From a bacterium (GTDB lineage Bacteria > ARS69): a DNA stretch of 6,327 nt. Both the position numbers and the translations under genes were made by a program. This document shows positions 3 to 5,921 of the stretch, in pieces. The notes under the pieces are model-generated. The model saw nothing but the letters and a program-made list of their open reading frames with translations. It searched no databases and was not told where the DNA came from. The stretch is taken from the NCBI GenBank assembly GCA_025774865.1, contig JALGZO010000533.1, forward strand, positions 1-6,327. Direction: 5' to 3'. Position 1 is the first letter of the stretch; each line of letters begins with the position of its first letter.

Positions 3-626
3 CACCGGTGGGAGGTACACGATTGGTCTCGGCTCGGCGAAGAGTGGACCGACGGGGCGCGCATCCGGAAAGGGCTCGATCCGCAGGAGTGGAAGAACAC
101 GCTCGTGGAGAGGATGCTCCTCAAGTACATTCCGGAGGGCGCCACGGTACTCGAGGTCGGTCCGGGCGGCGGCCGGTGGACGGAGTACCTTCAGCCTCGG
201 GCGAGCCGGCTCTTCCTCGCCGACATCTCCGAGAAGTGTCTCTCCCTCTGCCGGGAGCGGTTCCACGACCGCGACAACATCGAATACCGTTTCATCGCGG
301 ACGACGGGCTCGCGTTTCTCGACGAGGCGAGCATCGATCGCATCTGGTCGTACGATGTGTTCGTGCACATCAACCCGACCGACATCGACGCGTATCTTGG
401 TGACTTCCGGCGCATTCTGAAGCCGGGGGGCGTCGGCGTCGTTCACCACGCGGGCGGATCGTACGGATCGCACGCCAGCCGCACCGAATTCTTCCGCTCC
501 TACATGGATCGGGACTTCTTCGCGCACCTCGTGCGCAAGCACGGACTCGTGCTCGTCGAGCAGAACGAGGAGTTGGCGCACATGCCGGGTGACGTGATCT
601 CGGTACTGCGCAAGCCGGAGGGCTAG
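3..626 (+). CDS. Class I SAM-dependent methyltransferase, 5'-truncated by the window edge
   Basis: The reading frame is open from the first complete codon at position 3 to the TAG at 624-626, giving 207 residues with no start in view. The residues before the first internal ATG (position 105) read as real protein (WSRLGEEWTDGARIR), so that ATG is not the start; perhaps 20-30 residues are missing. A Rossmann-type motif I is seen (VLEVGPGGGRWTEYL, about residues 49-63), followed by an acidic strand-2 end (LFLADIS), a motif around IWSYDVFVHI, and the post-motif III signature RILKPGGVGVVHHAG. These are typical of the Methyltransf_11/25 class, which transfers a methyl group from SAM to a small molecule or sugar. 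The substrate cannot be read. It is convergent with the pseudo-receiver gene, sharing a CTAG in which both stop codons overlap, so no terminator fits between them. Confidence 0.9.
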   Translation, partial: HRWEVHDWSRLGEEWTDGARIRKGLDPQEWKNTLVERMLLKYIPEGATVLEVGPGGGRWTEYLQPRASRLFLADISEKCLSLCRERFHDRDNIEYRFIADDGLAFLDEASIDRIWSYDVFVHINPTDIDAYLGDFRRILKPGGVGVVHHAGGSYGSHASRTEFFRSYMDRDFFAHLVRKHGLVLVEQNEELAHMPGDVISVLRKPEG

Positions 627-1033
627 GGCGACGGTTCTCGAGACGTCGGACCACGGCGGGTCCTGCCGTCCAGCGCCTCCCGCACGCGCTGCACGACCTC
701 GCGGCTCACGAGGGGCTTCTCGAGGAAGTCGACCGCCCCGGCTCGAAGCGCGCGAACCGCGAGCGCGACGTCCGGCGTGCGGGCCGCCATGATCACCGAC
801 AGCCGTGGTGCAACACTCTCGAGGGCTTCCCGGAGGTCGAACCCGCACATGTCCGGAAGCTCGACCTCCGTCAGCACACAGCCGCGTGACACCTCGTCGC
901 AATCCGCGAGGAGCTCTTCGCCCGTCGCGTACACCTCGACCGGAACCCCGAGCGTCTCGAGCATCGTCCGCACCGAAGAGCGGGCGCACGCATCGGGTTC
1001 CACCACCCGGACCGTGACACGGGCTCCGGCCAT
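623..1033 (-). CDS. Single-domain pseudo-receiver protein with Glu at the phosphoacceptor site
   Basis: A 136-residue protein made only of a CheY/FixJ-type receiver domain (about residues 6-122) with a short Arg/Pro-rich tail and no output domain. It aligns without gaps to the receiver of the neighbouring FixJ-like protein, so the active-site positions can be read directly. The acidic pair ED is EP (E12, P13), the phosphoacceptor Asp56 is Glu (E56 in LTEVELPDMCG), the switch Thr84 is Ala, and only Lys106 (FLEKP) is kept. It therefore probably cannot be phosphorylated normally and may be held in an active-like state. The ATG at 1033 is chosen because GGAGGT (1039-1044) lies 5 nt before it. A GTG at 1168 overlapping the regulator's stop is in frame, but would add 45 Pro/Arg-rich residues with no domain character. 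It lies 131 nt downstream of the FixJ-like gene on the same strand and is probably a paralogous duplicate of its receiver. A role as partner or inhibitor of the kinase or regulator is inference. Confidence 0.85.
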   Translation of the reverse strand: MAGARVTVRVVEPDACARSSVRTMLETLGVPVEVYATGEELLADCDEVSRGCVLTEVELPDMCGFDLREALESVAPRLSVIMAARTPDVALAVRALRAGAVDFLEKPLVSREVVQRVREALDGRTRRGPTSREPSP

Positions 1034-1038
1034 CTTGG

Positions 1039-1044
1039 ACCTCC
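1039..1044 (-). promoter_or_regulatory. Ribosome binding site of the pseudo-receiver gene
   Basis: Read on the minus strand this is GGAGGT followed by a 5-nt spacer and ATG (1033-1031). It is close to a full match to the anti-Shine-Dalgarno sequence, and it decides the start in favour of 1033 over the longer GTG frame from 1168. Confidence 0.75.
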
Positions 1045-1090: not shown

Positions 1091-1164
1091 CGGATGAGCT
1101 CCTTGGAAGATGGAGGAATCCGGAAGGGCGGGAAAGTGAGGGATTCTACGTACAGACGCCGGAG

Positions 1165-1776
1165 TCACCTGCGGACGCGCATCACCATCTGCACGAGCTC
1201 GGCGAGCGACTCGGCCCGCATCTTCTTCATCGCGCGCGACCGATGAATCTCCACGGTCCTCTCACTGACCGAGAGGTCGTACGCGACGGCTTTGTTCGGA
1301 GCACCGTCGACGATCTTCTCCATGACCTCGCGCTCACGCGGAGTGAGACTCTCGACGGCGTCCAGGATCGCCTTCCGGTCGGCGAGCCGCCGCCGAATCG
1401 TCGCGTCCTGGTCGATTGAGTGGTGGACGCTGTCGAGGAGTTCCTGTTCGTCGAACGGCTTCTGCAAGAAGTTGACGGCGCCACTACGCATCGCGTTCAC
1501 CGCGATCGGCACATCACCGTGACCCGTGACGAAGACGATCGGGAGGGTACTCCCCATCCGGGTCAGGCTTTCTTGAAGTTCCAGGCCCGACATGCCCGGC
1601 ATCCGCACGTCGAGAACGAGACACCCCGGCCGCGCGGGCTTGTAGGCGTTCAGAAAGGCACGGGCGTCCACGAACGTCTCGACGGCGAGCCCGACCGACC
1701 GAATCAGCATGCTCAGCGCGTCACGGACTGCGTCGTCGTCCTCGACGACGAATACGGTGGGCTCGGAACCACTCAC
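1165..1776 (-). CDS. FixJ-family response regulator (receiver + LuxR-type HTH)
   Basis: A DNA-binding two-component regulator. The receiver domain (about residues 7-122) has all conserved active-site residues: E12/D13 acidic pair, D56 phosphoacceptor (LVLDVRMPGMSG), T84 (VTGHGD) and K106 (FLQKPF). The VTGHGDVPIAVNAM stretch is characteristic of FixJ/TodT/TtrR types. A linker leads to a LuxR/GerE helix-turn-helix (about 143-200: LTPREREVMEKIVDG, then SVSERTVEIHRSRAMKKM). The GTG at 1776 is preferred: GGGGGAG (1782-1788) sits 5 nt upstream, and the resulting 203 residues match the usual FixJ length. The ATG at 1833 (222 residues, GAGG at 5 nt) is a real alternative but adds a Gly/Ser/Pro-rich leader. 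The divergent histidine kinase at 1890 is the obvious cognate sensor. Target genes are unknown; an inverted repeat in the shared promoter gap makes autoregulation plausible. Confidence 0.93.
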   Translation of the reverse strand: MSGSEPTVFVVEDDDAVRDALSMLIRSVGLAVETFVDARAFLNAYKPARPGCLVLDVRMPGMSGLELQESLTRMGSTLPIVFVTGHGDVPIAVNAMRSGAVNFLQKPFDEQELLDSVHHSIDQDATIRRRLADRKAILDAVESLTPREREVMEKIVDGAPNKAVAYDLSVSERTVEIHRSRAMKKMRAESLAELVQMVMRVRR

Positions 1777-1889: not shown

Positions 1890-3638
1890 ATGGTCCGGCG
1901 TCTGAGCGCGACGTGGCGCCTGTACCTGGCCCTGGCCGGGTCCGGGGCGGCAATGGTCGGTGCAATGCTCTACGGGTGGCACACCGGTGAGCGCATGAGT
2001 CTCCGGCACTTACCGTTGATCGACGCCGCGGTCCAGATCCAGCTCGAGGCCACGACCGCCCATCTGTGGTTCGAGGAGATCCTCAGCGGCGATCGGCACG
2101 AGAGTATGCAGGATGTCTGGCGCCACCTCGACTCGGCCGACGGCTACGCCCGGGCCATGCTGGACGGCCGACGAAGCGCCGAGGGTACCATCGTTCCGCT
2201 GGAAGACCCGCGCCTCCGGCAGGAGATCGAGGAGGTCCGCCGCAAGCTCGCGCAGTTCAACGGGATCACGCGGGAGAGGTGGGACGCGAGAAGGACGTCG
2301 GCGGCCGGCACGGGGATCGACCAGCGCTACGACGGCGTCTTCGGGGAGTTCATCTCTCTGGCCCATGACGTCGAGACGAGGGTCCAGCGTGAGATCGAGG
2401 ACGACATCGCGCTCTTCCGGCGCATCCAGTTCTCTCTCATCGTCGGTGCCGCACTGCTGGCGGTGCTGGCCGGTCTCGTCATCGCTCGATACGTCGAGCA
2501 GCGGCGGCGGACGGAGCGACGCCTGCAGCGGAGCGAGGAAGAGCTCCGACTCACGTTCGAGAGTACGCCGATCGCGATGGCGGTTCTGGACGGCAGCGGG
2601 CGGTTCGTCCGCGTGAATCCCGCGTGCTGCGAGATGCTCGGATACGATCGAGACGAGTTGTGCCGCCTCCGTCTCGAGGACATCACGCACCCCGACGACG
2701 CGAGTCGGAGCACGCACCTCGTCGAGGAGCTGATCGGCGGCGGCGCCCACGCCCGGAGGACGACCAGTCGCTATCTCCGCAGGGACGGAGCGATCCTCCA
2801 CGGATTGATCCACGCGCGGCGGATGATCGGCGTGGGGAGCGCCCCGATCGTCGTCGGTCAGATTCTCGATCGAACCAAGGAAGTTCACGCCGAGGAGGAA
2901 GCGCGTCAGCAGCGGGAGCGGCTCGCCCACGTCGCCCGCGTCACCACGATGGGCGAGATGGCGACCGGAATCGCACACGAGATCAACCAGCCGCTGGCCG
3001 CCATCTCCACCTTCGCACAGGCTTGCCAGCGCCTGATCGGCGCGGAGAAGATCGATTCTGGCGAGCTCACCGACACCCTCGGCCAGGTCAGCGCACAGGC
3101 CCGCCGGGCCGGCGAGGTCATTCGCCGCTTGCGGACGTTCGTCAGCAAGCGAGAGTCGGAGCGAGAGCGGGTGGTCGTCAACGATCTCATCGAGGAGGCG
3201 GTCGAGCTCGTCAGAACCGACGTGGGACTCCACGATCTCCAGATCGACCTGCAGCTCGCGGACGACCTGCCCGAGGCCATCGTCGACTCCGTACAAATCC
3301 AGCAGGTGATCTTGAATCTCGTCCGCAACGGGCTCGAAGCCATGCAGGAGACGGGCGCGAAGAAGGGCATCCTGACCTTGCAGACGACGCCCGCCGAAGG
3401 CGAGATCGAGATCCGGGTCGCGGACCAGGGTCCCGGACTGGCCCCCCAGGTGGTCGAGCGGCTCTTCGATCCGTTCTTGACCACGAAGGCGTCCGGCATG
3501 GGAATGGGGCTCTCGATCAGCCACTCGATCGTCACGGCGCACGGCGGACGCATCTGGCACACGTCGAACGAAGGTGGAGGGACCACGTTTCACGTCGCGC
3601 TTCCGGCGGACATCGGCTCCGACGCCGCGCGGCCCTAG
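1890..3638 (+). CDS. FixL-like membrane PAS sensor histidine kinase
   Basis: A 582-residue sensor kinase. It has a first membrane helix at about residues 11-29, a periplasmic region (about 30-180) predicted to be helical with AHLWFEEILSGD near its start, and a second membrane helix at about 181-200. A short charged coil leads to a PAS domain (about 217-332, with GYDRDEL and DITHPDD). The HisKA segment carries the H box GEMATGIAHEINQPLAAI with phosphoacceptor H363, of the FixL/NtrB/TtrS class. The HATPase_c domain shows the N box (N476, N480), G1 (ADQGPGL, D512), F box (LFDPFLTTK, 525-533) and G2 (SGMGMGLSIS). All catalytic motifs are intact. It should autophosphorylate on H363 and pass phosphate to D56 of the divergent FixJ-like regulator. 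The ligand is unknown: the PAS domain could bind a small molecule, but a heme site cannot be established from sequence. A long open frame on the opposite strand is a codon-bias shadow. Confidence 0.95.
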   Translation: MVRRLSATWRLYLALAGSGAAMVGAMLYGWHTGERMSLRHLPLIDAAVQIQLEATTAHLWFEEILSGDRHESMQDVWRHLDSADGYARAMLDGRRSAEGTIVPLEDPRLRQEIEEVRRKLAQFNGITRERWDARRTSAAGTGIDQRYDGVFGEFISLAHDVETRVQREIEDDIALFRRIQFSLIVGAALLAVLAGLVIARYVEQRRRTERRLQRSEEELRLTFESTPIAMAVLDGSGRFVRVNPACCEMLGYDRDELCRLRLEDITHPDDASRSTHLVEELIGGGAHARRTTSRYLRRDGAILHGLIHARRMIGVGSAPIVVGQILDRTKEVHAEEEARQQRERLAHVARVTTMGEMATGIAHEINQPLAAISTFAQACQRLIGAEKIDSGELTDTLGQVSAQARRAGEVIRRLRTFVSKRESERERVVVNDLIEEAVELVRTDVGLHDLQIDLQLADDLPEAIVDSVQIQQVILNLVRNGLEAMQETGAKKGILTLQTTPAEGEIEIRVADQGPGLAPQVVERLFDPFLTTKASGMGMGLSISHSIVTAHGGRIWHTSNEGGGTTFHVALPADIGSDAARP

Positions 3639-5147: not shown

Positions 5148-5231
5148 CCAGGTACGTAGAACCCGAAACGCGGCTACGCGAACGTCCGGATGGCAGGTGG
5201 CGTCCGATCGTCGCTTAATGAGGGCCGTCAC

Positions 5232-5253
5232 GCGCTCCGGGAGCGCTTTGTTT
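5232..5253 (+). terminator. Terminator-like hairpin in the sigma gene leader
   Basis: GCGCTC-CGG-GAGCGC (5232-5246) is a perfect hairpin, or 7-bp arms around a single G, followed directly by TTTGTTT (5247-5253). This is the form of a short intrinsic terminator in the plus orientation. It ends 18 nt before the preferred sigma start at 5271, so it could act as an attenuator of sigma transcription. If translation really began at the ATG 5190, this would be coding sequence instead. Confidence 0.4.
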
Positions 5254-5270
5254 CCTACCGCGAGGTGCCC

Positions 5271-5921
5271 TTGTCGACCTGCCTGCAAGTTCTCGATGTC
5301 GCCGGCGACCAGCGGCCGGTGGATCCCTCGGACGAGGAGCTCGTCGGTCGTTGCACGAGTGGAGACGAGCAAGCCTGGAAGACTCTCGTCCAGCGCTACC
5401 GCCGTCTCGTTCACGCGATCTCGATGCGGGCCGGACTCCAACCCGATTCCGTGGACGAGATCTTCCAGGAGACGTTCGCTAGACTCGCGGAGCGCATCGG
5501 GGAGATCCAGCAGCGCGAGCGCGTGCGGGCCTGGATCGTCACGACGGCGCGTCACCTCACGATCGACACCATCCGCGCCCAGGCGACCGCGCGCCGGTTC
5601 CAAGAGTCCGTGATTTCGTTCGAGGAACTCAAGCCCCGCGAGGCGGAGCTCCCGCTGGAAGAGATCTTCCAGCTCGAGCAGCAGCACCTCGTCCGACGCG
5701 CGCTGGCCCGGCTGGACTCGCGGTCACGCCGGCTTCTGCACCTCTTCTTCTACGACTCCGACGACAAGCCCTGCTACGCCGCGATCGCGAAGGAGATCGG
5801 GATGGCGGTGGGATCGCTGGGCCCCACTCGCGCCCGCTGCCTGCAAAAGCTCCGGACCGAGTACGAGAAGCTCGTGGGCGAGGAGCCGACCTCGGAGCTC
5901 CCGATCTCCCGCTGCGCCTGA
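5271..5921 (+). CDS. ECF-type RNA polymerase sigma factor
   Basis: A 216-residue sigma-70 family protein with only regions 2 and 4, hence the ECF class, which redirects RNA polymerase to a dedicated promoter set. Region 2 covers about residues 30-106 (DEQAWKTLVQRYRRLVHAI, DEIFQETFARL, VRAWIVTTARHLTIDTIRAQ). Region 4 covers about 139-197 (RRALARLDSRSRRLLHLFF, then the helix-turn-helix YAAIAKEIGMAVGSLGPTRA with RCLQKL). A Glu-rich linker joins them. The start is uncertain. The TTG at 5271 is preferred because GAGG (5262-5265) lies 5 nt before it and region 2 begins about 20 residues in. The ATG at 5190 adds 27 residues (243 in total) but has no Shine-Dalgarno sequence, and the GTG at 5265 has none at good spacing. 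A probable zinc-type anti-sigma gene follows 178 nt downstream. The divergent propeller gene may be a target, which is inference. Confidence 0.9.
   Translation: MSTCLQVLDVAGDQRPVDPSDEELVGRCTSGDEQAWKTLVQRYRRLVHAISMRAGLQPDSVDEIFQETFARLAERIGEIQQRERVRAWIVTTARHLTIDTIRAQATARRFQESVISFEELKPREAELPLEEIFQLEQQHLVRRALARLDSRSRRLLHLFFYDSDDKPCYAAIAKEIGMAVGSLGPTRARCLQKLRTEYEKLVGEEPTSELPISRCA

Follow-up and report, generated by a model that had tools for sequence, protein, structure and literature searches.

FixT is a single-domain receiver whose expression is raised through the FixLJ two-component pair and which, without being phosphorylated, inhibits autophosphorylation of the kinase FixL (PMC7078487). The Osp protein of Rhodobacter sphaeroides inhibits CckA likewise; it too is a single, unphosphorylated receiver whose expression is under the pathway that it inhibits, and both Osp and FixT proteins are without the metal-binding acids (PMC9430884). 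Proteins that match the receiver profile, but in which the phospho-accepting Asp is absent, are defined as pseudo-receivers or aspartate-less receivers (PMC12632262). Asp to Glu and Thr to Ala are common changes in aspartate-less receivers, and the operon of one of them, CmrT, includes an ordinary kinase-regulator pair (PMC12632262). According to a 2025 review, the mechanisms of bacterial pseudo-receivers are still a mystery (PMC12632262).

Here we describe a stand-alone pseudo-receiver (PsR) encoded in a stretch of DNA of 6,327 nucleotides, hereafter the window, which makes up the entire contig C537 in a fragmented MAG (785 contigs, 4.7 Mb). Like FixT of S. meliloti and C. crescentus, which is reported to be unphosphorylated, the window PsR is a single receiver encoded in a fix cluster and keeps the conserved Lys. 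As fixT adjoins fixL and fixJ, so the PsR gene lies 131 bp behind a FixJ-like gene, with the kinase gene divergent from both. Transcription of fixT is raised through FixJ and FixK; the PsR gene carries a predicted FixJ box that is unique in its genome. Both metal acids have been lost from S. meliloti FixT, whereas the window PsR has lost the second and keeps the first as Glu12. FixT differs in keeping the phospho-site Asp, in place of which the PsR has Glu56. Caulobacter FixT binds Fe-S through four Cys; four are also present in the window PsR (C16, C45, C52 and C63), but the PsR family has no common set. The likeness to Osp extends to the single receiver and, by prediction on the PsR side, to the lack of phosphorylation and to expression under the inhibited pathway. 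Osp differs in belonging to the CckA-ChpT-CtrA pathway, in keeping the Asp and in lacking the Lys. Finally, CmrT (of the CmrRST operon) and ChxR share with the window PsR a receiver fold from which catalytic residues have been lost, but they carry DNA-binding domains, whereas the window PsR has no output domain and lies under a predicted FixJ box.

Results

The pseudo-receiver locus

The features of the locus are collected in Table 1.

Table 1. Coordinates of the pseudo-receiver gene and its neighbours in the window
Feature	Position	Strand	Remarks
Stand-alone pseudo-receiver (PsR) gene	623..1033	-	136 aa + stop; Glu12, Pro13, Glu56, Ala84, Phe103, Lys106
Shine-Dalgarno-like GGAGG	1040..1044	-	6 nt 5' of PsR ATG; read from sequence
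Predicted FixJ box GTACGTAGAATCCCTCAC	1136..1153	-	within fixJ-PsR gap, upstream of PsR gene; PWM and pattern match
Canonical FixJ-like response regulator, REC + LuxR-type HTH	1165..1776	-	complete active site; inferred GTG start at 1776
Membrane histidine kinase, 2 TM, PAS, HisKA, HATPase_c	1890..3638	+	divergent from fixJ/PsR; FixL-related, without haem-PAS motif

The PsR reading frame begins with an ATG at 1033, is coding to 626 and ends with a stop at 625-623, on the minus strand, a detail missing from an earlier, sequence-only reading of this DNA. It is intact, and its GC content by codon position (0.78/0.51/0.82) is similar to that of the neighbouring genes. A longer version, starting from a GTG, reading to 1168 and overlapping the fixJ stop, was disfavoured by codon-position GC: since GC3 is 0.58 in the extension as against 0.82 in the gene itself, we prefer the ATG start. 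The fixJ-like gene is on the same strand, and the divergent kinase is presumed to be the partner of its product. The haem motif that is absent from the PAS domain of this kinase is present in the orthologous kinase of genome G004 (locus L108) and in several gammaproteobacterial loci. The signal here need therefore not be oxygen, and the sensor part of the kinase seems, on comparison of the window and G004 sequences, to have been exchanged within the family.

Elsewhere in the window genome, the contig ends at L106 and L109 (G000:C110 and C785) share sequence; together they look like the two parts of another fixJ-kinase locus, upstream of which lies a Ser/Thr kinase gene.

Active site and fold

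The Pfam model Response_reg (PF00072) recognises residues 9-118 of the 136-aa protein at an E value of 1.5e-17, exceeding the curated cut-off. Alignment with the adjacent FixJ-like receiver is gap-free over 122 residues (31% identity). Pro13 replaces the second metal acid, Glu56 the phospho-accepting Asp and Ala84 the switch Thr/Ser; the position of the first metal acid is still acidic (Glu12), and Phe103, Lys106 and the segment GAVDFLEKP are retained. The sequence-only reading had thus been right about the three substitutions, about the retained region and about a single receiver with no output domain. Among 163 receivers surveyed in this and other genomes, Asp56 is found in 156, and the three losses are combined in the window PsR only. 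With its receiver profile and absent phospho-Asp, the protein is a pseudo-receiver; FixJ itself is recognised by a REC and a LuxR-type DNA-binding domain with a complete site, and the window PsR, with three losses and no output domain, is of another kind.

The predicted structure is an ordinary (beta-alpha)5 receiver (mean pLDDT 82), and fold comparison matched it to the phosphorylated FixJ receiver with a Z score of 17.7. As to the active or inactive state, the comparison of the model with both kinds of receiver structure ended in a tie.

A family of stand-alone receivers behind fixJ

In a first scan the closest stand-alone relative lay directly 3' of fixJ in a gammaproteobacterial MAG (L023), and its second metal acid is likewise lost. 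The family search covered 296 genomes of the order to which L023 belongs and 150 genomes of one family within that order; matches whose score marked them as complete regulators carrying an output domain were excluded from the stand-alone count. All 31 stand-alone matches lie within 1.5 kb behind a same-strand regulator that has a C-terminal domain. Including the window PsR, the family comprises at least 34 stand-alone receivers, all others being in Gammaproteobacteria and nearly all directly 3' of a canonical FixJ-like regulator. These partners have complete sites (DDDTFK in 34 of 35, DDDSFK in one). The trees and residue counts below refer to 34 PsRs, the query included; three more degenerate receivers behind fixJ (L168, L182 and L198) were left out.

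In a more distant member from another gammaproteobacterium (L071, 5593-7044), the PsR follows a FixK/CRP-like gene in a fixLJ neighbourhood. A strong FixJ box (5742-5759) is found there within the 5' part of the FixK/CRP-like ORF as called from its first ATG.

Stand-alone receivers also lie behind fixJ in many Alphaproteobacteria (L019, L024, L028, L060, L092 and others) and in a few other bacteria. Their gene position is that of the PsRs, but the alphaproteobacterial ones mostly have complete sites (DD-D-T-K) and no FixJ-like alpha4, and in trees the PsR clade is separate from them. L034, L042, L047 and L053, and further L065, L070, L073, L081, L087, L088 and L089, are receivers of this separate, alpha4-less group; that of L089 (Rhodoplanes) has a degenerate site, NDETLQ.

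Plasmids and phages searched for PsR relatives yielded general receivers only. The Burkholderia pyrrocinia and Cupriavidus plasmid matches were rejected, as these proved to be regulators of other kinds or receivers whose active sites are complete. No relatives were found in viral contigs, and a class-wide profile search returned mostly FixJ receivers, with only two additional linked pairs. We found no description of a fixJ-linked PsR family among the open-access papers that we searched.

A predicted FixJ box in the fixJ-PsR gap

The gap between fixJ and the PsR gene has a median length of 144 bp in the family, against 131 bp in the window. The box TA[ACG]GTA occurs in 27 of 35 gaps, where Markov shuffles give an expectation of 1.8, and a -10-like hexamer follows about 40 bp past the box in 17 of 35 (0.007 expected); these counts are inflated by related species, yet synonymous sites are far diverged between many of them. 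By eye, several of the remaining gaps hold variants of the box, for example L222-L224.

We derived a weight matrix from 22 family boxes, which come from related species and from which the query was left out. On 35 kb of S. meliloti pSymA the top match of this matrix was CTAAGTAATTTCCCTTAG, which lies 3' of the receiver gene next behind fixJ. In S. meliloti the fixK promoter carries the published FixJ site TAAGTAATTTCCCTTA, and the consensus of selected FixJ sites is GTAMGTAG or GTAGTTTCCC (PMC4999443). Judged by its top pSymA match against the published site, the matrix therefore describes FixJ boxes. Its best score in the window, 12.5, falls on the GTACGTAGAATCCCTCAC site of Table 1, on the correct strand, and the next is 4.9. 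A score of 12.5 has a P of 0.001 for a stretch of the length of the gap and was reached in 2 of 60 simulated whole windows. Additionally, the pattern GTAMGTAGNNNCCC, which was composed after sight of the window site, has a single match in the 4.7-Mb window genome, inside the fixJ-PsR gap, as against two for the reversed control pattern.

In the window gap we saw no -10-like hexamer at a distance of 40 bp from the box, which may reflect the promoters of another phylum, and a search of the fixJ-PsR gap for an FNR/FixK box found none. Since a FixJ box lies upstream of it, the PsR gene is a predicted FixJ target, and we infer from these motif matches that it is regulated by FixJ.

The second-best score in the window belongs to a second GTACGTAG at 5152-5169 on the plus strand. 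This site lies in the divergent interval between the gene for a YCF48/FlgD_ig protein and an ECF-like sigma factor gene (5190-5921, plus strand).

Candidate partners of the pseudo-receiver

A FixJ-driven gene with a product unable to carry phosphate fits feedback. Because the metal site, the Asp and the Thr are lost, phosphorylation of the window PsR is, by receiver chemistry, very unlikely. We think it rather probable that the PsR acts as a FixJ-induced, non-phosphorylatable brake on its own two-component pair. As its promoter suggests, the active FixJ-like regulator would cause PsR to be made; the protein, in which neither the second metal acid nor the Asp nor the switch Thr remains, would be incapable of accepting phosphate; and it would then bind a partner of the same pair and damp the pathway in the manner of FixT and Osp. 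We infer both the partner and the sign of the effect.

One option is that the PsR occupies the FixJ receiver. FixJ dimerises through alpha4-beta5, and since the PsR retains alpha4, a heterodimer with FixJ is a serious alternative to inhibition of the kinase. Helix alpha4 is 61% identical between the PsR and its own FixJ, compared with 36% in FixJ-FixJ pairs of equal overall identity. In contrast, alpha5 is at the control level and beta5 is not above it (74 vs 88%). Against control pairs chosen for equal identity over the remainder of the domain, alpha4 and beta5 combined were not distinctive (60 vs 58%); with pairs matched on whole-domain identity, alpha4 was the only element to stand out. We therefore regard alpha4 conservation as moderate evidence for a FixJ contact. 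In the alphaproteobacterial fixJ-linked receivers the FixJ-like alpha4 is lost, with 15% identity to their own FixJ as against 51% in the PsR family; S. meliloti FixT has likewise lost the FixJ-like alpha4-beta5 that the PsR family retains. Through this retained face the PsR might form a heterodimer with one DNA-binding domain, a dominant-negative brake acting receiver on receiver. As an account of the family this is tentative, although for the window protein it is the form towards which we lean slightly.

The other option is that the PsR, like FixT and Osp, binds the transmitter of the adjacent kinase and inhibits its autophosphorylation, which we consider possible but somewhat unlikely. Its gene position is that of the single-domain receiver directly behind fixJ in S. 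meliloti, which we take to be FixT, and both the predicted FixJ box and the missing second metal acid, a lack shared with FixT and Osp, are consistent with such a role. However, trees place the PsR family apart from the alphaproteobacterial fixJ-linked receivers, and the family keeps the FixJ-like alpha4 that FixT has lost. S. meliloti FixT forms no clade with the PsRs either, but sits on a very long branch (about 7 changes per site), the length of which leaves its placement unsettled. Moreover, the query and its own FixJ share no more than 8% identity in helix alpha1, which speaks against kinase docking in the FixJ manner.

The acid at position 56

The sequence-only reading had taken Glu56 for a natural mimic of phosphorylation and the protein for a constitutively active decoy or adaptor, and had suggested looking for Glu56, Pro13 and Ala84 together in homologues. 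They do occur together: residues 13, 56 and 84 read PEA in 4 of the 34 PsRs, the query included, and PES in 6. Position 13 is Pro in 14, Ala in 10, Gly in 5 and something else in 5, and is acidic in none. Asp occupies position 56 in 17 members and Glu in 16, with Gly in the remaining one (acidic in 33 of 34). At position 84 there are 12 Ser, 10 Gly, 9 Ala and 3 Thr, whereas Lys106 is present in all 34. From the counts at positions 13, 56 and 106, the trait of the family is therefore a lost metal site, a kept Lys and an acid at 56. On the tree, position 56 has changed at least six times, mostly between Asp and Glu. By this sequence comparison, Glu56 is one of two interchangeable acids and not a family hallmark.

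That Glu56 locks the receiver on, so that it permanently serves as decoy or adaptor for some unrelated target, appears improbable to us. It is true that aspartate-less receivers have Glu at this site more often than any other residue (26%; PMC4395418), that Glu mimics phospho-Asp in some regulators (PMC4395418, PMC12632262), and that in this family it is found in 16 of 34 members, with Lys106 in all. However, the 17 members with Asp56 are also without the second metal acid, and the repeated changes at this position do not sit well with a fixed mimic. Residue 84 is Ala or Gly in 19 of 34, which makes Thr-Tyr coupling doubtful; a ChxR-like constitutive regulator would be expected to retain the Thr/Ser and Tyr/Phe coupling residues by which its on state can be relayed, whereas the query has Ala84. 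In ChxR itself, Glu replacement left constitutive activity standing (PMC4395418), and the tie between active and inactive structures in the fold comparison gives the mimic no help. What survives of the decoy or adaptor proposal is a protein that is without the residues required for phosphorylation and that probably works through protein binding; with Asp56 in half of the family, a defining role of Glu as an 'on' mimic is not supported. The acid at 56, Asp or Glu, and the invariant Lys106 are more likely a structural pair than a mimic of phosphate.

Descent and selection

With six active-site columns masked, a single branch sets the 34 PsRs apart (UFBoot 97, SH-aLRT 76), and the window PsR groups with the other pseudo-receivers and not with its own FixJ. 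This is mirrored by a clade of the FixJ partners, in which the FixJ proteins of the window, G001 and G004 are included (98/87). The simplest reading of these trees would be a single old duplication, after which the pair was kept or transferred together. Between close gammaproteobacterial PsRs dN/dS is 0.05-0.31, and FixJ receivers are slower still. The gammaproteobacterial PsRs, the members that these figures cover and among which the window gene does not count, are under purifying selection and are no decaying duplicate.

The phylum of the window was sampled by five genomes of one family. The PsR was not found in the four others, so that within this phylum it is known from one MAG. Two of the four have a fixLJ pair without a PsR, so there has been loss or transfer. 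We considered whether a gammaproteobacterial contig had contaminated the MAG and rejected this: the YCF48/FlgD_ig protein encoded nearby shares 63% identity with one in G002, which is of the same family, and has no counterpart in the gammaproteobacterium G386. The window FixJ is most similar to that of G004, also of the same family (about 65% over the receiver). By these similarities, the contig belongs to the lineage of the MAG.

That the gene is a decaying duplicate of the neighbouring FixJ receiver is very unlikely. Three active-site losses, an amino-acid divergence higher than that of FixJ and absence from the four related genomes examined would all suit decay. Against this stand the purifying selection and fixJ linkage of the family, the grouping of the window PsR with pseudo-receivers away from its own FixJ and, in the window itself, an intact ORF with a Shine-Dalgarno sequence, a GC3 like that of its neighbours and a promoter box unique in the genome. 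The sequence-only reading had named homologues with Asp56 as the sign of such decay; they exist, as half of the family, but in a family that is selected and fixJ-linked, so that this sign of decay is only half borne out. Least credible of all is that the PsR drains phosphate from the kinase or serves it as a second phosphorylated output, for although the locus is a two-component one and half of the family keeps Asp56, the second metal ligand is acidic in none of the 34, and the window PsR is without Asp, metal acid and Thr.

Discussion

The fixJ-linked PsRs would represent a fresh variety of single-domain feedback pseudo-receiver, of the FixT and Osp sort but with a FixJ-like output face, as judged by comparison of their sequences. 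The family offers a fixed genetic partner, a predicted promoter logic, a constraint that can be measured and, at position 56, members with either acid. The role of the acid at this position, and whether the target is the kinase or FixJ, are therefore testable. If damping of its own two-component pair by the PsR is indeed what happens, then feedback of the FixT type, known from Alphaproteobacteria, would extend to Gammaproteobacteria and to another phylum.
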